Positions 20,032 through 40,759 of a stretch of 42,153 nt of DNA are shown here, one piece after another. The position numbers and the translations under genes are program-made. Origin of the DNA: Candidatus Gastranaerophilales bacterium (GTDB taxonomy: Bacteria > Cyanobacteriota > Vampirovibrionia > Gastranaerophilales > Gastranaerophilaceae); the NCBI GenBank assembly GCA_944325065.1, contig CALUYS010000015.1:1-42153 (forward strand). The letters run 5' to 3'. The stretch's first letter is position 1, and each line of letters begins with the position of its first letter. The notes under the pieces were generated by a model. The model searched no databases. It was not told where the DNA came from and saw only the letters and a program-made list of their open reading frames with translations.

Positions 20032-20199
20032 TAATTTAAATTCAAACCCTAACCCAACCCCAAGCCAAGTTTCTTGTTCTTGTGTCATGCTTTGATTTTG
20101 TGTTTTAACAACATTGCTTTTGAAGCTTGGTTGTTGGTTGTTTTTTATTTTTAAAGAGGAATGAGGGCATGCCCTCATTCCTTGAAGATTTGTTATCAT
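20026..20199 (-). pseudogene. B3': truncated copy of the SFKG membrane-protein family
   Basis: A 57-codon ORF starting with ATG overlapping the stop of the kinase-like gene A2 (TAATG). It aligns with the first ~55 residues of B1: MIT at the start, RACP, then NNQQPSFK and TQEQETWLGVGL at the beginning of the membrane helix, after which it runs out into an unrelated tail and a stop inside the flavoprotein's last codons. It lacks the helix and the whole C-terminal domain. Sequence divergence from B1/B2 is much larger than between B1 and B2, so it is an older remnant. The conserved A-B overlap shows it descends from a former A-B pair. Confidence 0.7.
20157..20182. repeat. perfect 26-bp palindrome near the start of B3'
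   Basis: AGGAATGAGGGC (20157-20168) and GCCCTCATTCCT (20171-20182) are exact complements around AT. It sits over codons 6-15 of B3', at the same place as a different palindrome in B1 and B2. The inner AGGGC/GCCCT is shared and encodes RACP; the outer arms differ but still pair. Confidence 0.85.
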
Positions 20200-21926
20200 T
20201 ATGGTAAGACCTTTCCAGTTAATATACCTATTGACTTTTTAGCTTTTGACTCAAGACTACTATCATGTTTTTCTACAGCATTTTTTAAATTAATAAAAGC
20301 TGCTTCTAACTTTATAACTCTTGTTTTTAAACCAATTTTTTCTTCGTCATCATCATCTTCCATAACCTCATCCCACCTTGATTTTGCCCCATTCGACAAC
20401 ACATCAGAAAGCTTGGTTTTATCAGGTACAGCGTTTTTATAAGGATGTTTTGCTCCATCAACACCTGTTCCAAAAAGGTGATGGAAATAAGAATATCCGG
20501 ATTGGTTATTTTGATGCTCTTCGCCAGCTACAAGTCTTTTCATCCAGTTTATTGAACCTTTATACCAATCTTTTGTTTTATTATGCCAATCTTTTCCAAA
20601 TTTTCTCATTTCTTCAAAATATTCATCTTCAGCCCTTGAAGTTTCTGAATAAGGTCTTTGAGGTTGAAATTCTGATAACATTTTTGCTGCAAAGTTTGCT
20701 CTTGCTTGATATCTCACCATTTCTAACATATCTTTGGGTTGACAATTTTCTGTATCAAGGTATCCATATTGTTTTTCATGGTTTTTCAATATTGAAAGTC
20801 TTAATATTTCTGCATCTAAAACATCCTCTGTCGGATTTTCATAGACTGCTTTACGAACTTTTTCTAGTCTGTTTGATGTATCACAATATTTGGCTCTTTC
20901 CATAAAATACATTTTTAAGAAATCTCGACAAGATTTTTTATTATTTTTATAATCCATACCATTATGTTCATTAATTTGATACAAATCTTTTATATATGAA
21001 CTTAAGCCAGCATTTTCAAACCCTAACATATTGGTTCTTTTTTCATTTGGGGCAAATGTGAACACTTTGTCTGCTTCATTCATATTTGTTTGCCATTCTA
21101 AATCAATGATTGTTGGAGTTTCTTTTTCATATAATATATTTCCAAGATTTAAATCTGGATTAAATAACATTTTTTTATCTAATTGCGATAGTATACTTAA
21201 AACATCTTTTATATTTTGTCGAGTTAAAACATTAAATTTTTTATCTCCATTTCTTTTTTTTAGTCCTTTAGATACTCCAGGTTGAAATTCTGATATCAAA
21301 AAGATACTGCCATCACGAGTTTTCATCAATGCTACACCTTGCTGCATACTTGGCATATCAACTACTTTCTTCAATTCTTCAAATTCATTTTCAAGATTTT
21401 TTGAATTACTTTTTTGTGTTTCTTTTATTACAAATTGAGTGTAATCTCCAGATAATAATGTTAATGTTTTTTCAAAAATTAAAGGATGAGGCTCGTAGTG
21501 CCAAGGTAAAGAGTTTCCGTTTGAATTACCATCATCAACTGAAGTTAACCAATCTTTTACTAAATATGCATTTCCAGACATTCCACTTCCTAAGTATTGT
21601 GCACTCATAAGTTGTGAATTAATTTTGCTATTATATTTCTCATTATAACTTAATCTTTTGTCCCAACATTCTTTTTGTCTGTGTTTGGTTTCATCTTCAA
21701 ATTTATCTATAAATTTAGATAATCTTTTTAGAAAATTTTGATGTTGATTATGTTTTATAACCTCCTGATATACCACGGGACTTCCAAAACTCACAATATC
21801 TTTTTTCAAATTTCCATTTTGCATTTTGGGCAAGCCAAATTTGGACATCGCAAAATTGTTTTTAGTTTCTCTTTCTTTTTTTACTTCGTTTTTGTTTGAA
21901 TTCAATCCCATTTTTTCAATTTTCAT
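20199..21926 (-). CDS. A2: SFG-motif protein with kinase-like (APH-type) core
   Basis: No named family recognised; 575 residues. The N-terminus is polar with AMSKFGLPKMQ (26-36) and SFGSP (46-50), nearly the same as in A1. A protein-kinase-like core follows: glycine loop GSGMSGNAY (113-121), Lys168 in FVIKET, a Glu near 181-184, the catalytic loop PDLNLGN with Asp258 and Asn263, and Asp275 in IIDLEW in place of DFG. This pattern matches aminoglycoside/choline kinase relatives more than Ser/Thr kinases. A roughly 250-residue helical domain follows, shared with A1 and B1. The tail differs from A1 and has an acidic run (EDDDDEE). GGAG precedes the ATG, 21 bases after B2. Kinase activity and target are inferred. 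Confidence 0.7.
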   Translation of the reverse strand: MKIEKMGLNSNKNEVKKERETKNNFAMSKFGLPKMQNGNLKKDIVSFGSPVVYQEVIKHNQHQNFLKRLSKFIDKFEDETKHRQKECWDKRLSYNEKYNSKINSQLMSAQYLGSGMSGNAYLVKDWLTSVDDGNSNGNSLPWHYEPHPLIFEKTLTLLSGDYTQFVIKETQKSNSKNLENEFEELKKVVDMPSMQQGVALMKTRDGSIFLISEFQPGVSKGLKKRNGDKKFNVLTRQNIKDVLSILSQLDKKMLFNPDLNLGNILYEKETPTIIDLEWQTNMNEADKVFTFAPNEKRTNMLGFENAGLSSYIKDLYQINEHNGMDYKNNKKSCRDFLKMYFMERAKYCDTSNRLEKVRKAVYENPTEDVLDAEILRLSILKNHEKQYGYLDTENCQPKDMLEMVRYQARANFAAKMLSEFQPQRPYSETSRAEDEYFEEMRKFGKDWHNKTKDWYKGSINWMKRLVAGEEHQNNQSGYSYFHHLFGTGVDGAKHPYKNAVPDKTKLSDVLSNGAKSRWDEVMEDDDDEEKIGLKTRVIKLEAAFINLKNAVEKHDSSLESKAKKSIGILTGKVLP

Positions 21927-21947
21927 AAATACTCTCCTTTACTTAAG

Positions 21948-22421
21948 CTAAACTATTATTTTATTTTGTGATTCAAATGATGCAGCTACATTTGGCACAA
22001 CTTTAACCATTTCCCATTTTGGATTGTATTGTTTCAAACTAACATTGACAAAATGTTTTTGCATCTTGTTTTCAAGCTCTTTAACTTGTTTTTGAGGTGT
22101 AAATTTTGTTTTGTCAACTGTTTTTGAAGCTTCGTTTGTTTTAGGTTTCATTTCAACTTTTTGCGATTCAGCAGATTTTATTTTAGGTGTTCTTGTTTCA
22201 TTTTTTTTCTTACCTTTTGAGCATGCCCACGCAATCAAACCAATTGCAAGGGCGATAAACGTTGTCAACCCAACAGCAACCCATGTTTTTTGTTCATTTG
22301 TCATGCCTTGATTTTGTTTTTCAGAAACGTTTCCTTTGAAACTTGTCTGTTGGTTATTCTTTTGGATTTTAAAGGTGTAAACAGGGCAAGCCCTGTTTAC
22401 ACTTATGTTTGATGTTATCAT
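21948..22421 (-). CDS. B2: short SFKG-motif single-pass membrane protein (truncated paralogue of B1)
   Basis: 157 residues. The first ~132 codons are identical in DNA to B1. SFKG is at 27-30, a membrane helix at about 47-67 (WVAVGLTTFIALAIGLIAW), then a basic stop-transfer stretch and a Lys/Glu/Thr linker. From about residue 136 it diverges (WEMVKVVPNV against WDMVKTIPNV in B1) and stops at 157, so it lacks the roughly 330-residue C-terminal part. Its start overlaps the B1 stop (ATGA), so translation is coupled. It may be a functional short anchor or a by-product of recombination between direct repeats. The few changes near its end suggest it was an independent gene before the repeat became identical. 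Confidence 0.65.
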   Translation of the reverse strand: MITSNISVNRACPVYTFKIQKNNQQTSFKGNVSEKQNQGMTNEQKTWVAVGLTTFIALAIGLIAWACSKGKKKNETRTPKIKSAESQKVEMKPKTNEASKTVDKTKFTPQKQVKELENKMQKHFVNVSLKQYNPKWEMVKVVPNVAASFESQNKIIV

Positions 22422-22608
22422 ATTAAAACCTCGGAAGTTAAATCTGATATTTCTGATTTTAAATCACTTTGAGCAGAGTAATCATTTTTATCAACAGCAT
22501 ATTTTAAAGAAACAAATTTGCCTTCTAATGTTCTAATAGTTTCTTTTAATGCTGGTATTTTGAAAGTCCTCCCCTTTATAACTTCTTTTTCTTCTTTTTC
22601 CATTACAT
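22024..22608. repeat. 585-bp direct repeat, copy 1
   Basis: By eye identical, base for base, to 23457-24041 (offset 1433). It spans the last ~63 codons of B1 and the first ~132 codons of B2. The first mismatches flanking the block are at 22023 and 22609. Confidence 0.9.
22375..22402. repeat. perfect 28-bp palindrome near the start of B2
   Basis: GTGTAAACAGGGC (22375-22387) and GCCCTGTTTACAC (22390-22402) are exact complements around AA, inside codons 7-16 of B2. It shares the AGGGC core but not the outer arms with the palindrome in B3'. Confidence 0.88.
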
Positions 22609-23854
22609 TATCCCACTTTGATTTTGCACTACTAGACAATATATCAGAAAGCATGGTATGTCGTTGACTGTTAGTAACGAAGATATATCTTTTATCATAG
22701 ACTTCTTCTTGTCCTTTTGTATAACATTTTGGTGCATCAACTTCACCTGTTATTATTTTTACAAAATTTGGCAATTTTTCGCTTGCTTCTTTCTTTAATC
22801 TTTCATGCCAAAATTTTCCAAGTTTATTCATATATTCAAAATATTTTTTCTCATTTTCACTTAAATTTTCTTTTTTAGGTTTAAATTCTTCAAGCATTTT
22901 GGCAGTATAATTTGCAATAAGTAATGGTTGAACAAATTTCACCATTTCGTGTGGTTCTTCAACACTTTTATCTGAATAAAGAAACTGTCTTGTGTTGTTT
23001 GCAAGCAAATGAAGTCTTAAAGTTTCAACATCAACAACATCATCGCTTGGATTTTTTAACATTTCACTTCTAACAACATCAAATTCGTTATCTTTATTAA
23101 AATATTCACTTCTAAGTTTTAAATATTCGACAAATGTTTCTTTTATTTTTGCATTTTTATCGGCATAATCATCAGCTTCTTTTTCAAGAGTTGGCAAACC
23201 TTTTTCGCCATTTGGTTTATCTTCATAATGGTCTCTATATTTAATCCCTTTAACCAACCTTGCTTCTTGAACTCCGTCGTGGCAATTGTGAAGTTCATAA
23301 AGAGTTGTTGAGCTTAAAAGTTTATCGGTATACAATTGTTGTTTCCTTCCCAAAAGCTGTGGAACAAGCACCATTTGTTCATACAATGAAAAATCGTTTT
23401 TTGGTTCAAAATCTGCAAGCACATTTGGAATGGTTTTAACCATATCCCATTTTGGGTTGTATTGTTTCAAACTAACATTGACAAAATGTTTTTGCATCTT
23501 GTTTTCAAGCTCTTTAACTTGTTTTTGAGGTGTAAATTTTGTTTTGTCAACTGTTTTTGAAGCTTCGTTTGTTTTAGGTTTCATTTCAACTTTTTGCGAT
23601 TCAGCAGATTTTATTTTAGGTGTTCTTGTTTCATTTTTTTTCTTACCTTTTGAGCATGCCCACGCAATCAAACCAATTGCAAGGGCGATAAACGTTGTCA
23701 ACCCAACAGCAACCCATGTTTTTTGTTCATTTGTCATGCCTTGATTTTGTTTTTCAGAAACGTTTCCTTTGAAACTTGTCTGTTGGTTATTCTTTTGGAT
23801 TTTAAAGGTGTAAACAGGGCAAGCCCTGTTTACACTTATGTTTGATGTTATCAT
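22418..23854 (-). CDS. B1: SFKG-motif single-pass membrane protein with A-type C-terminal domain
   Basis: No named family; 478 residues. SFKG at 27-30, membrane helix at about 47-67, basic residues right after it (CSKGKKK), and a linker to about 115. The rest is a helical domain alignable with the C-terminal half of the kinase-like A proteins: NPSDDVVDVETLRLHLL matches NPTEDVLDAEILRLSIL, then TAKMLEEFKP and LSDILSSSAKSKWDNVMEKEE. The last ~60 residues are identical to A1 even in DNA. It has no kinase core. The start overlaps the A1 stop (ATGA), so A1 and B1 are probably made together; a membrane-anchored partner of A1 is a reasonable inference. Confidence 0.7.
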   Translation of the reverse strand: MITSNISVNRACPVYTFKIQKNNQQTSFKGNVSEKQNQGMTNEQKTWVAVGLTTFIALAIGLIAWACSKGKKKNETRTPKIKSAESQKVEMKPKTNEASKTVDKTKFTPQKQVKELENKMQKHFVNVSLKQYNPKWDMVKTIPNVLADFEPKNDFSLYEQMVLVPQLLGRKQQLYTDKLLSSTTLYELHNCHDGVQEARLVKGIKYRDHYEDKPNGEKGLPTLEKEADDYADKNAKIKETFVEYLKLRSEYFNKDNEFDVVRSEMLKNPSDDVVDVETLRLHLLANNTRQFLYSDKSVEEPHEMVKFVQPLLIANYTAKMLEEFKPKKENLSENEKKYFEYMNKLGKFWHERLKKEASEKLPNFVKIITGEVDAPKCYTKGQEEVYDKRYIFVTNSQRHTMLSDILSSSAKSKWDNVMEKEEKEVIKGRTFKIPALKETIRTLEGKFVSLKYAVDKNDYSAQSDLKSEISDLTSEVLI

Positions 23855-24041
23855 ATTAAAACCTCGGAAGTTAAATCTGATATTTCTGATTTTAAATCAC
23901 TTTGAGCAGAGTAATCATTTTTATCAACAGCATATTTTAAAGAAACAAATTTGCCTTCTAATGTTCTAATAGTTTCTTTTAATGCTGGTATTTTGAAAGT
24001 CCTCCCCTTTATAACTTCTTTTTCTTCTTTTTCCATTACAT
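23457..24041. repeat. 585-bp direct repeat, copy 2
   Basis: Identical by eye to 22024-22608. It spans the last ~63 codons of A1 and the first ~132 codons of B1. Recombination between the copies would remove 1433 bp and join A1 directly to B2. Confidence 0.9.
23808..23835. repeat. perfect 28-bp palindrome near the start of B1
   Basis: GTGTAAACAGGGC (23808-23820) and GCCCTGTTTACAC (23823-23835) around AA, the same palindrome as in B2 because it lies within the 585-bp repeat. Confidence 0.88.
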
Positions 24042-25554
24042 CATCCCACTTTGCTTTTGCCCCATCCGACAACACATCAGAAAGCATGGTTTTATCAGGT
24101 ACAGCGTTTTTATAAGAATGTGTTGTTCCGTCAACCCCTGTGCCAAAAAGTTTAGGAAAATAAAATAAACCTGAAGCATAATAACCCGTCGTTTGTCGTT
24201 CCTCACCTGTCACAAGCTTTTTCATATAATTTATTGAACCTTTATAATCAGACTTTGTTTTATTATGCCAATCTCTTCCAAAATCACGCATTTCTTCAAA
24301 ATATTCTTTTTGTTCACCTGAAACATAGCCTTGTGGTTGAAATTCCTCTAGCATTTTTGCTGCAAAGTTCGCCCTTGCTTGATATCTCACCATTTTTAAC
24401 ATATCTCTCGGTTCTTCATTTTGTTTGTCTATATACAAAAATTGGTGAATATTATTTTGCAAAATTGATAATCTCAATATTTCAGCATCCAAAACATCTT
24501 CCGTTGGATTTTTATAAACAGTTTTTCGTATTCTCTCCAATCGATTCGATGTGTCACAGTGTTTTGCTCGTTCCATTAAATACATCTTTAAAAAATCTCT
24601 TGTTTGACTCTTTGAACCTGTTTCGTCATACAAATGATGCATATATGAGGCTATTGCCCCACCTTCAAATGCAACCATATTTGTTTTCTTTTCTCCAGGC
24701 ACAAAATGGAAAAAATTACTTGCTCGATATGTAGGATATGCCCATTGCAAGTCCAATACTTTTGGATATTTGCTATTGCCTTTATAAAATATATTACCTA
24801 AGTTCCAATCAGGGTTAAATACGTCTTTATTATCCATATCTTCTAAAATGTTTAAAGTATCCTTTATGTTTTCATGACTCATTCTATTTAAACTATATCC
24901 GTCTTTTCCGGCAGGTTCGCCTTCTGCATAATGAGATATCAAAAAATAATTACCATCTTCTGTTTTCATTAATGCGATGCCTTGTTGAAATTTACTATCA
25001 GGTTCAAATTTTTCTAACATGTCATACTCATGCTTAATGCCACCAGGTCCATCAATTGGGTCACTACATTTTTTATCTTTTGCCTCTTTTATTACATATT
25101 TTGTTTCACCATCAACCTGAACACGATAAGCATCTCCTGACATACCACCACCTAAATACGTAGCACGATAATCATCAGATGTAAAAAAACCGGTACTTAT
25201 TGACTCTTCAAACCTTGTATCAGGATACGAAATACCGTTCTTTTGTGCAACTTTTTTGTCATCACTTGTATCTTTGACTAGCCTTCGTCCTAAATCACTT
25301 CTTCTCATCCACGCAGTTGCATCCTCAAATTTGTCAATGAATTTTGCAAGATGCGAAATAGTTGCTTCACTCACATTTCGCCAAATAACATTTTTTTGAA
25401 CTACAGGACTCCCAAAACTTACAACATCTTTTGTCAAATGTCCCTTTTGCATTTTTGGCAAGCCAAATTTTGTCATCGCAAAATTGTTTTTGACATTCTT
25501 TTCTTTTCGCACTTCGTTTTTGTTTTGGTTCAATCCCACTCTCTCAAGTTTCAT
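23851..25554 (-). CDS. A1: SFG-motif protein with kinase-like (APH-type) core
   Basis: 567 residues, paralogue of A2. The N-terminus has AMTKFGLPKMQ (26-36) and SFGSP (46-50) without a Sec signal. Kinase-like core: GGGMSGDAY (135-143), Lys156 in YVIKEA, Glu176 in HEYDML, catalytic loop PDWNLGN with Asp249 and Asn254, and Asp268 in VLDLQW. All residues needed for ATP and metal binding in kinase-fold enzymes are present. The C-terminal helical domain (about 318-567) is shared with A2 and B1. Its last 63 codons are the same DNA as the end of B1. AGGAG precedes the ATG. It is the first gene of the A1-B1-B2-A2-B3' array and lies 190 bp after a diguanylate cyclase on the same strand. Target unknown; an effector-like role is speculation. 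Confidence 0.72.
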   Translation of the reverse strand: MKLERVGLNQNKNEVRKEKNVKNNFAMTKFGLPKMQKGHLTKDVVSFGSPVVQKNVIWRNVSEATISHLAKFIDKFEDATAWMRRSDLGRRLVKDTSDDKKVAQKNGISYPDTRFEESISTGFFTSDDYRATYLGGGMSGDAYRVQVDGETKYVIKEAKDKKCSDPIDGPGGIKHEYDMLEKFEPDSKFQQGIALMKTEDGNYFLISHYAEGEPAGKDGYSLNRMSHENIKDTLNILEDMDNKDVFNPDWNLGNIFYKGNSKYPKVLDLQWAYPTYRASNFFHFVPGEKKTNMVAFEGGAIASYMHHLYDETGSKSQTRDFLKMYLMERAKHCDTSNRLERIRKTVYKNPTEDVLDAEILRLSILQNNIHQFLYIDKQNEEPRDMLKMVRYQARANFAAKMLEEFQPQGYVSGEQKEYFEEMRDFGRDWHNKTKSDYKGSINYMKKLVTGEERQTTGYYASGLFYFPKLFGTGVDGTTHSYKNAVPDKTMLSDVLSDGAKAKWDDVMEKEEKEVIKGRTFKIPALKETIRTLEGKFVSLKYAVDKNDYSAQSDLKSEISDLTSEVLI

Positions 25555-36737: not shown

Positions 36738-37514
36738 TTATACCAAAGTTAATTTTATTCCTTTATTTTGTTTTATTTTATGCTTTAATATATCAATTCT
36801 TGAATGCACACTAAAAATATTATTTGAACGTGGTTTTAGTTTTAAATATTTTTTATAAAATCTTATAGCTTTAAAATAATCACCCATTCTATCAAAACAT
36901 ATTGCAATACCTAAAAATGCATTATAATAATTAGGGTTAAGTTTTAATATCTGATAAAAACAAGATGAAGCTGATTTATAATTCTTCATATTTAAAAATA
37001 ATGTAGCTTTATAATTATATGCAAGCAAATAAGAAGGTTCTTCATTAATAATTTTTTCATAAATTGAAAAAGACATATTATATTCATCCATAAGCTCATG
37101 TGAAATTCCAAGTTGTATTTGATAACTTAGATTAGATTTATTTAATTTTATAGCTTTTTTTAAATTTTTAACAGCTAAATCAGGACGAGCAATAATATTA
37201 TAACAAATACCTAACTGATAATAAATTTCACTATTAAAAGGTGTAAGCTTTCGAGCTTTATTTAAACAATCAATTGCTTTTTCATATTTACCTATATTTT
37301 TATAAGAAAGGCTTAAACCAAAATAAGCATCTGAATTATTTCGATTAATAAATATAGTTTTTAAATAAAATCCAATCGATTCTCTAAACAATCGTCCCAT
37401 TCTTAATGCATTTGCTTTTGTTAACAAAATTTTAGCTTTTGTAACACGAATGGGATTTGTAACAGAAACAAATTTTTCCATATTTAAAAAACTATCTTTA
37501 ACTTCAATAACCAA
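36738..37514 (-). CDS. TPR-repeat protein, cytosolic
   Basis: 258 residues made almost entirely of tetratricopeptide units from about 28 on: AYFGLSLSYKNIGKYEKAIDCLNKARKLTP, EIYYQLGICYNIIARPDLAVKNLKKAIKLN, and AFLGIAICFDRMGDYFKAIRFYKKYLKLKP. No signal or membrane helix. Start TTG at 37514 has no clear ribosome binding site; the ATG at codon 12 (37481) is an alternative that keeps all repeats. It lies 79 bases upstream of the sugar kinase on the same strand. Protein-protein scaffold; partner unknown. Confidence 0.78.
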   Translation of the reverse strand: MVIEVKDSFLNMEKFVSVTNPIRVTKAKILLTKANALRMGRLFRESIGFYLKTIFINRNNSDAYFGLSLSYKNIGKYEKAIDCLNKARKLTPFNSEIYYQLGICYNIIARPDLAVKNLKKAIKLNKSNLSYQIQLGISHELMDEYNMSFSIYEKIINEEPSYLLAYNYKATLFLNMKNYKSASSCFYQILKLNPNYYNAFLGIAICFDRMGDYFKAIRFYKKYLKLKPRSNNIFSVHSRIDILKHKIKQNKGIKLTLV

Positions 37515-37716
37515 GTCTTTTTATTTATATCCTCTCAACTCACATTTTTATTTTATATTTATTACTCGAAAAAAATATCAACCTCAGGATGTATATTTTA
37601 CTAGCCCTTAGATTAATTAATATTTTATTAACATTTGTAAACATTTTCATTCAAACTGGCAAATTATTTTTTTACGGTTTTTGTATGAGTATAAATATTT
37701 ATTTGTTAAATAAAAT

Positions 37717-37723
37717 AGGAGGG
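37717..37723 (+). promoter_or_regulatory. strong ribosome binding site that sets the start at 37731
   Basis: AGGAGGG lies seven bases before ATG 37731. The ATG at 37807, which begins the long open frame, has no such site. This places the true start upstream of the AAAC repeat. Confidence 0.8.
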
Positions 37724-37730
37724 AAGAAGC

Positions 37731-38451
37731 ATGAGAGTTAATGCAGTGAATTATGAAGTAACAAACAAACAAACAAACAAACGTAGCTTCTAGGACAAAA
37801 ACAGGCATGAAGCAACAACCAAGTTTTGGCATGAAAATGAACAACCGGCATGCTACGCAAAAGGATAAGGTTTCGTTTGGTGCACCGTTTTTTGATGATT
37901 TATGGGAATTAACTCAAGATGTTGCAGGTTTTTGTGGAAAAGTTGTAGGTACTCCAATAGGGTGGATTTCAAATGAAATACATGAAGGTGTAAAATCAAT
38001 TATTAATGAGCCAAGCACACCAAGAGAACGTGAAGCAAGACAAATTGTTAATACTTATACAACAGGAAATGCCGTATGTGCGTTAACTGTTGGACAAATT
38101 ACAGGGCTTGATGCTATACCTTTAAGTGCTGCACAAACAAAAATGGTTCGTGAAATAGGTGAAGATGCTTATAATTTGTCTGAAAAAGAATTAGAAGAGC
38201 TTGGTAAAGAAGTAAAAGTGGACATTTGCGCAAAAGTTGGTGCCGGAATTGGTGGTGGCACGATGATGGCAGTGGACTATGCTGCTAAAAAAGCTGGTGA
38301 AAGTGCTGCTGCAGCTGCTGCAACAGAAATTGTTGGTGCAATTCCTTTCTTTGGTCCGATCGTAAAATCAGGTACAGCTAGTACATTAACAAAAATCTTA
38401 GGTGAGGACACAATAAAGGCTTGTAAAAAAATTGTTCGTAAAAGAAACTAG
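37731..38451 (+). CDS. SFG-motif protein, probably phase-variable (out of frame here)
   Basis: Translation should start at 37731, but in this sequence that frame stops after 20 codons at 37791. The frame of the long ORF (37807-38451) is open back to 37762, and losing one 4-base repeat unit joins them into a protein of about 238 residues. The body has PSFGM and VSFGAPFF near its start, then a helical region, a Gly/Ala-rich segment (VGAGIGGGTMMAVDYAAKKAG and an Ala run) and IPFFGPIVKSGTAS, which could insert in or cross a membrane, ending in a basic tail. No family recognised. A membrane-active or surface role would fit the Gly/Ala stretch. Re-initiation at 37807 could still give a shorter product. 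Confidence 0.65.
37760..37782 (+). repeat. AAAC tetranucleotide repeat
   Basis: AAC followed by five AAAC units inside the first codons of the SFG-motif gene. The 76-base distance between the two ATGs is one more than a multiple of three, so a change of -1 or +2 units restores the frame. Confidence 0.9.
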
Positions 38452-38473
38452 TTTATTGTGGGAGAACTTTATT

Positions 38474-38998
38474 ATGATAAATTTGAATTCTGTGCAAATT
38501 TATAGTAAATATAATACATTCGGACAAACAACGAAAAATAATAAAACACTAAATTTAAATAATAATGAAGCGGATATTAAATTAAAATATCCGTTTCATT
38601 ACGGTAAAAATATATTACTTGATTTACCATTAGCGGTATCAGCATATTCAAGTTTAAAAAAAGATGAAAAATTTTTAAAAAGCCTTGTTGTATTAACATC
38701 AATCGTTTTTGGATTTGCAAATATTGGCGAAATTAATATAAAAAAAGATAGTCAAAATAATGAAAACAACTTAAAAAAAGTCAAAGCAATGCTTGTATTA
38801 AAACAATTTACAGAGTTAAGTTTTAGTTTGCTTTCTGCTTTCGCTATAAATAATTTAAATAAAAAAGATGTTTCCAACAAAAAAGCAAAAATTGTTGGAC
38901 TTGGTGTCTTGACTGTTTTAGGTGCAATCGCAAGTATAGCAAATAACACTATGGCGTACCACAATTTTAAAAAGGAAAACCAAAATAAGGACAGTTGA
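38474..38998 (+). CDS. small multi-pass membrane protein with TFG motif
   Basis: 174 residues from the ATG at 38474, chosen because GGGAG sits about ten bases upstream; an in-frame TTG at 38432 has no such site. The polar N-terminus has NTFGQTT (residues 14-20), similar to the SFG motif of its neighbour. Three or four hydrophobic segments follow: ILLDLPLAVSAYSSL near 47-61, LKSLVVLTSIVFGFANIG near 68-85, KQFTELSFSLLSAFAIN near 110-126, and KIVGLGVLTVLGAIASIANN near 137-157. No family recognised. It begins 22 bases after the phase-variable gene, so they are probably co-transcribed. Confidence 0.62.
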   Translation: MINLNSVQIYSKYNTFGQTTKNNKTLNLNNNEADIKLKYPFHYGKNILLDLPLAVSAYSSLKKDEKFLKSLVVLTSIVFGFANIGEINIKKDSQNNENNLKKVKAMLVLKQFTELSFSLLSAFAINNLNKKDVSNKKAKIVGLGVLTVLGAIASIANNTMAYHNFKKENQNKDS

Positions 38999-39097
38999 GA
39001 ATCAATCGATACTCTTAATATTTTTTAATAAAAAAACAAATTATTTGAAATTATTGTAAAATAATTTTAAATAAAAATAGTAAAAAAGGGTAATTAT

Positions 39098-40759
39098 ATG
39101 AGAAGTGATGAAATCAAAGAAGGAATGTCAAAAGCTCCGCATAGGGCATTGTTGTATTCAACAGGGGTAACAAGAAATGCTATGAAGCGACCATTTATTG
39201 GTATTGCGAGTTCATTTTCAGATTTGGTTCCTGGGCATGTTGGTTTGCGGGATTTAGAAAGACAAATTGAAAAAGGCATTCATACTGGTGGCGGACAGGC
39301 TTTTATTTTTGGTTTACCTGCGGTTTGTGATGGTATTTCAATGGGACATGAAGGGATGAAATATTCGCTACCTTCTCGTGATTTGATTGCTGATTGTATT
39401 GAAACAGTTGCTCAAGCACATCAACTTGATGGATTAGTTTTGCTTACAAATTGTGACAAAATTACTCCAGGTGCGATTATGGCAGCTTTGAGGTTAAACA
39501 TCCCATCAATTGTTGTAACTGGTGGTCCTATGAATGATGGTTGTTGTGAAGGTAAACATCTTACGTTCATTAAAGGTTCTTTTGAAGCAATTGGTAAATT
39601 ACAAGCTGGAGAAATTAATGAAGAAACTTTGCATAAAATGGAAGAAAATTGTTGTCCTTCAATAGGTTCTTGTCAGGGATTATATACAGCTAATACGCTT
39701 GCAGTTTTAACAGAAACAATGGGGTTAAGTCTTCAAGGTTGTGCAAGTGCAGCTGCGACAAGTGCAAAAAAAAGAAGAATAGCTTTTGAGTCAGGTGTAA
39801 AAATAGTAGAACTGGTTCAAAAACAAATTTTGCCCAAACAAATTATAACAAAAGAAAGCATACAAAATGCAATCGTTATGGATTTAGCTTTAGGTGGTTC
39901 AACAAACTCTATACTTCATTTACTTGCAATAGCCAAAACGGCAAATATTGATATAACATTAAAAGACTTTGATAAATTAAGTTATAAAATTCCACAAATA
40001 ATAAAACTTGACCCATCTTCAAATTTAACAATGACTGATTTTGAAATGGCAGGTGGAGTAAGTGGTGCAATAAGAAATTTATATGGAAAAACACCTTATT
40101 TTTCAGATACAACAAATGTTGAAGGTAAAAAAATAAGTGAAATAGCAAAAACAAGCTATGTCGATTCAAACATTATCCATAATTTAGATAAACCATTAAC
40201 TAACAACCCAGGATTAGCTGTTTTATACGGAAACCTTTCAGAAAATGGCAGTGTTGTAAAAATCTCTGGTGTGGATAAAGAAGCTTTAAGATTTAAAGGT
40301 AAAGCAATATGTTTTGATTGTGAGGAAGATGCTGTTTGTGCAATAAGTAATAATACAGTTAAAGAAGGTCATGTTGTTGTAATTCGTTATGAAGGTCCTC
40401 AAGGAGGTCCTGGGATGAGAGAAATGTTAAGTCCTACTTCTTTGATTGTAGGTAAAGGACTTGGTGCAAAAGTGGCACTTATTACTGACGGACGTTTTTC
40501 AGGCGGAACACGTGGTCTATGTATAGGTCATATTTGCCCTGAAGCCTCAAATGATGGTCTTATTGCTTATATTCAAGATGGTGATGAAATTGAAATTGAT
40601 ATCCCAAATAGAACTTTGAATTTACTTGTAAATGATGATAAAATTTCTATAAGACGTCAAAACAAACCTATGCAACCAAATAAAAAAGTAAGCGGATATT
40701 TGAAAAAATATGCAAAAACAGTTCAAAGTTCTGAATATGGTGCTGTGACTATTGATTAA
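39098..40759 (+). CDS. ilvD: dihydroxy-acid dehydratase
   Basis: Iron-sulphur enzyme of valine, isoleucine and pantothenate synthesis; converts 2,3-dihydroxy acids to 2-keto acids. Family signatures: [18 protein letters not shown] at 36-53, [16 protein letters not shown] at 79-94, [11 protein letters not shown] at 116-126 with cluster Cys119, [11 protein letters not shown] at 190-200 with cluster Cys192, and [19 protein letters not shown] near 468-486 with the catalytic Ser. The VPGH form matches the E. coli-type enzyme, so a 4Fe-4S cluster is likely. Length (553) is normal. GGG precedes the ATG by about seven bases. No other ilv genes are nearby. Confidence 0.95.

Follow-up and report, generated by a model that had tools for sequence, protein, structure and literature searches.

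The opa genes of Neisseria are dispersed paralogs with CTCTT repeats in the signal-peptide region and independent ON and OFF states, and the hgp, lic and mod genes of Haemophilus influenzae carry tetranucleotide repeats in their first codons that switch translation ON and OFF. The tetranucleotide contingency loci of the latter species were reportedly treated by de Bolle in 2000, a study cited in PMC6321876. Multi-locus phase-variable genomes are seemingly restricted to pathogens (PMC11868660). The locus described here lies in a 42,153-nucleotide stretch of DNA (the window) from G000, a draft Gastranaerophilales metagenome-assembled genome (MAG) of 1.86 Mb, and belongs to a family that resembles opa in that its paralogs are dispersed and have a frame-shifting repeat directly after the start. 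Unlike opa, with its one repeat type and one fold, the family places four repeat types on unrelated bodies, features a downstream partner and belongs to another phylum. As in the H. influenzae loci, the window repeat is a tetranucleotide within the first codons; its AAAC units differ from the CCAA, CAAT and AGTC of that species and are fewer (5 and 8 at the two longest tracts). The family would also share multi-locus switching by simple sequence repeats, including coding poly-G tracts of at least seven, with the Campylobacter and Neisseria phasomes, but its leaders combine poly-G with further kinds of unit, and it comes from an uncultured gut lineage related to cyanobacteria.

At the window locus (all features on the + strand), a direct reading of the sequence finds the Shine-Dalgarno (SD) motif AGGAGGG at 37717..37723, with an anti-SD duplex of -10.7 kcal/mol, ahead of an ATG at 37731. 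In the assembled phase, this ATG opens a short ORF of 20 aa (37731..37793), translated as MRVNAVNYEVTNKQTNKRSF, which ends at TAG 37791-37793. About ten codons 3′ of the ATG lies the tract AAC(AAAC)5 (37760..37782), recovered by Tandem Repeats Finder as 5.8 copies with a 100% match. The body of the gene, 229 codons with two SFG motifs (37762..38451), occupies the +1 frame relative to the ATG and is limited on its 5′ side by TAA 37759-37761. Given this offset of one base, four or seven AAAC units join start and body, the former yielding a continuous protein of 238 aa by reading-frame count, and in the third phase (six units) the frame ends at TAG 37784-37786; the assembled five-unit state is OFF for the full-length protein. 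The earlier note, made from this sequence by itself, had placed the strong AGGAGGG, the start and the repeat correctly to the base; its account of a start frame ending at 37791 and a body open back to 37762 is exact, and its claim that losing one unit or gaining two restores the protein agrees with the in-frame numbers four and seven.

The 23-mer tract, allowing up to three mismatches, was never recovered from 100 dinucleotide-shuffled versions of the window, and runs of at least four AAAC units are found at only two sites of the 1.86-Mb genome, the window tract and C4:233-264, which occupy an equivalent position in one gene family. Not expected by chance, restricted to a family and set at a common position, the tract supports the reading as a switch. 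It further has the makings of a contingency locus, in that its unit length is not divisible by three, it lies above chance inside the 5′ coding region, and other unit numbers join body to start, as in the in-frame paralogs C16 and C4. Published cut-offs for phase-variable tracts are reached by five tetranucleotide units and by seven G (PMC6321876). With five units, the window tract stands at the lowest number usually accepted, and paralogs with two units fall short of it.

We posit that slipped-strand mispairing in replication would change the number of AAAC units and thereby shift the body into or out of register with the strong start at 37731, giving ON states at four or seven units and OFF for the full protein at five, and that cassettes (see below) would be spread and homogenised by recombination, mixing bodies and switch types. 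Translational phase variation by slipped-strand mispairing, in a family of exchangeable cassettes, is, on the sequence evidence, the best explanation and in our judgement a probable one; we infer that slippage is the cause, that a population would switch reversibly and that the protein level would be affected. That the unit number is instead an assembly or sequencing error, with the gene in frame, is most improbable: the draft consists of 37 contigs and is possibly short-read based, but a single read can span the 23-bp tract, and the arrangement recurs across the family and in G001, an independent genome. A programmed frameshift at AAC AAA C was also considered and set aside, as to our knowledge no slippery site fits a +1 shift there and the copy C12 is without the stop context.

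G001 is a congener whose sequence is the same as that of the MAG 'Candidatus Gastranaerophilales bacterium isolate BRZ_DS__bin68', and L136 (BRZ_DS__bin68) contains the G001 ortholog of the window gene (copy C15 of G000) exactly. A conserved promoter (37657..37694) consists of TGGCAAATTATTTTTTTA, then TTTTTGTATGAGTATA (consensus CTAGCAAATTATTTTTTTA - TTTTATATAAGTATA). Promoter and leader are common to 17 genes in G000 and G001, most of them with SFG-motif N-termini, and the 17 aligned leaders have the core TTTTGTAAACATTTT..TTCAACTAGCAAATTATTTTTTTA-TTTTATATAAGTATA, followed by the SD and, in most, the ATG. Since this promoter, conserved in 17 leaders, lies upstream of ATG 37731, the idea of transcripts starting at 37790-37807, which the note had raised as a possible refutation, is unlikely. 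The core pattern is present in 27 of 117 family genomes (none for the reversed-pattern control), and the genes 3′ of it, where read, often display short N-terminal motifs (e.g., SFG, SFK and NFN). At the place equivalent to the window tract, 14 of the 17 leaders carry a frame-shifting unit in tandem (AAAC, 10-bp, 13-bp or poly-G), and all repeat units of the leader family have a length of 1 mod 3.

AAAC tracts in G000 have five units in C15, eight plus AAAT in C4, three plus AAAT in C16 and two in C6 and C12, and in G001 two units each in C10a and C10b. The 10-bp unit TACAAATGGG is present in two copies in C24 and G001 C1 and in three in G001 C12b, the 13-bp unit AAATTTAATGGGC in three copies in C18b and two in C2, and poly-G as G10 in C18c and G9 in G001 C22b. 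The published cut-offs for hypermutable tracts are reached by C15, C4 and the poly-G tracts of C18c and C22b alone. Read-through in the assembly (ON) is seen in G000 C16, C4, C24, C2 and C18c, and a body out of frame (OFF) in G000 C15, C6, C12 and C18b as well as in G001 C10a, C10b and C22b. Unit numbers differ between the two sister species, with two AAAC units in the G001 ortholog of the window gene versus five, and the leaders of C16 and G001 C12a, which are 96% identical, differ by two units. The 10-bp and 13-bp units themselves contain an ATG, and changes in their number may alter the level of expression rather than switch it ON and OFF; some G001 10-bp copies, in which the usual ATG is absent and an ATG lies inside the unit, may work differently. 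The contingency-type switch proposed in the earlier note is supported by these paralogs with other frame-shifting repeats, both ON and OFF, by the two-unit ortholog and by purifying selection on the body (see below), so that comparison with relatives backs it more firmly than this locus taken alone.

For the body of C15 and its G001 ortholog (five and two units, both OFF), dN/dS is 0.118 (dS 0.55), and for the syntenic pair C12/C10a (two units and OFF in both) it is 0.124; the values for C24/C1 and C6/C22b are 0.42 and 0.35. In the first two pairs, the bodies are under strong purifying selection though OFF in both assemblies, and we therefore take the proteins to be used. Some members are clearly broken, namely G001 C12a by a second frameshift and G001 C18 by an internal stop, as would befit a birth-and-death family in which OFF copies are decaying and the repeat is incidental, but the dN/dS of 0.12 for two orthologous pairs OFF in both species, a body intact for 229 codons and a repeat at the equivalent place in many paralogs make this very unlikely. 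A transient OFF state is the natural reading of the five-unit copy. It is not natural for the two-unit copies, because a tract of that length would be expected to slip only seldom; if it does so, and if an OFF gene makes no protein, the OFF state of C12 and C10a (dN/dS 0.12), and of C6 and C10b, is difficult to account for. All AAAC copies that are OFF but intact, five in number, are in one phase, and four of them have only two units; in view of this shared phase and of two-unit tracts below the usual slippage thresholds, a plain ON/OFF switch leaves part of the pattern unaccounted for.

Either a recent replacement of the leader or reinitiation of translation at an internal in-frame ATG (37807..37809), 13 nt 3′ of TAG 37791, would help explain the two-unit OFF copies. 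Reinitiation is the main rival to phase variation: the 20-codon ORF would be a leader peptide, and the unit number would alter the N-terminus or the amount of the product. The DUF697-type AAAC copies retain this ATG whether they are ON or OFF, the short form would retain both SFG motifs, and a product made in this way would accord with purifying selection on OFF-copy bodies in both species. Nevertheless, we consider it unlikely, as the SD of ATG 37807 is weak and badly spaced (-3.9 kcal/mol; -0.2 to -6.4 across copies), whereas most AAAC-type upstream starts have an SD of about -10 kcal/mol; further, C12 is without a nearby stop, its start frame passing the ATG and extending to 33 codons, and the arrangement is absent from copies with other repeats. 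Variation by codon position between the repeat and ATG 37807 does not distinguish the frame in use.

Phase variation, the reading we prefer, would act on an exchangeable unit. The cassette of promoter, repeat-bearing leader, SFG gene and partner gene (37640..39006) is the unit common to the window and the G001 ortholog; it is 85% identical to G001:C10 (L242 10145-11499), and the flanks are unrelated. In the window, it lies between a TPR gene (36738-37514) and ilvD (39098-40759). Comparison of stretches outside the cassette shows no similarity at C15/C10b, C6/C22b and C16/C12a and almost none at C24/C1, C12/C10a being the only syntenic pair. Most cassettes are at different sites in G000 and G001, and G000 C18a and G001 C12a have the same upstream gene end followed by different cassettes. 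In C12, C10a, C10b and C16, the promoter is preceded by much the same gene end (NSFTGEYLKKLYDEQK or a near match), presumably that of UvrA, as if co-copied. The leaders of G001 C10a and C10b are 98.9% identical over 175 nt, with bodies only 42.6% identical at the protein level, four G001 leaders that are 93-97% identical stand ahead of two unrelated body types, and the body type of C6/C22b (73% identical) is preceded by AAAC in one species and by poly-G in the other. These identities indicate homogenisation among leaders whose bodies are not homologous, and movement would proceed by homologous recombination through the common leader.

The G001 C10 locus (L242 10145-11499) carries two switch cassettes in tandem; compared with it, G000 C12 (L245) is missing the second switch gene, with a partner-like gene left as a remnant. 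Elsewhere in the window (20199-25554, - strand), a two-gene unit encoding a 575/567-aa SFG protein and a 157/478-aa protein is tandemly duplicated; the 157/478-aa proteins have the identical N-terminus MITSNISVNRACPVYTF, one of the second genes being shorter, and the 567-aa gene has a promoter as in the switch cassettes without a repeat.

Residues 83-223 of the window body bear a weak likeness to DUF697 (PF05128) in a profile search (E 3.5e-6), scoring 27.3 bits against a gathering cut-off of 27.7, and its paralogs score lower still or give no match. The body features three moderately hydrophobic glycine-rich stretches. A PDB profile search found no solved relative, and an AlphaFold model from seven sequences, all-helical with a mean pLDDT of 52, was too poor for a fold search. 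The partner gene (38474..38998), coding for 174 aa with hydrophobic segments and taken to be a small membrane protein, has no family match, and such a partner is found 3′ of every switch gene whose downstream DNA was read. There were zero matches for the window protein and its partner in PADLOC and PHROGs (anti-phage defence and phage families), no informative match for the window protein in PHROGs, NCBIfam, PADLOC and PDB profile searches, and no relatives in viral contigs. The SFG-type product, predicted to be alpha-helical at low confidence, is probably membrane-associated. We infer that it would act on the cell surface or in antagonism towards other cells; that it works at the membrane, possibly from cell to cell or in relation to the host, is a guess.

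Runs of at least five AAAC units are present in three of 114 family genomes, G000 among them, each directly after a start codon. An SFG gene of another genus (L170) has (AAAC)7 between the start and the SFG motif, and an FkbM methyltransferase gene (Pfam E 5e-14) of another genus (L171, G017:C22) has an in-frame (AAAC)16 two codons after the ATG. Among the poly-G tracts of at least eight in G000, 3 of 11 are at the start of prepilin-like genes; two of these genes were tested and both match the N-methylation motif, and of the three tracts one is ON (G13) and one OFF (G10). Prepilin-like genes (FTFVEVILVM) with poly-G/poly-C of 9-13 in the first codons are seen at G000 C1:133044 (L189), C1:147528 (L191) and C12:48101 (L203), L191 being in frame and L203 out of frame, and L218 and L241 of G001 likewise have poly-G/poly-C of this length in the first codons of prepilin-like genes. 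These are probable phase-variable pilins as judged from their tracts, and the pilin and FkbM tracts are in keeping with pili and surface glycans as the customary targets of phase variation. A raw count suggestive of widespread poly-G switching (97 of 114 family genomes) was set aside, as the G001 tracts are mostly in a dispersed GC-rich intergenic element. This element combines poly-G with an inverted repeat (CCTACGGCGGGAATTAGTATTTATGGGGGGGGGAGGC..GCCTCCCCCC; e.g., L213-L215 and L225-L237) and accounts for much of the G001 poly-G count.

In the open literature, we found no paper on phase variation in Melainabacteria or Gastranaerophilales, both terms occurring together only in a flagellin survey. 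The mechanism has precedents; what seems to be new is the family, its occurrence in this lineage and its mixture of switch types. A broader proposal, which we hold to be evenly balanced between right and wrong, is that of a multi-locus phase-variable set in which promoter, switch, gene and partner are exchangeable, repeats of 1, 4, 10 and 13 bp are swapped among unrelated bodies and cassettes among sites, giving combinatorial expression, and which would include the prepilin poly-G and FkbM AAAC tracts. A Gastranaerophilales family of phase-variable loci would stand, in a different phylum, as a counterexample to the seeming restriction of such genomes to pathogens. If true, the SFG proteins and their partners would be factors under fluctuating selection in a lineage whose interaction with its host is little known.
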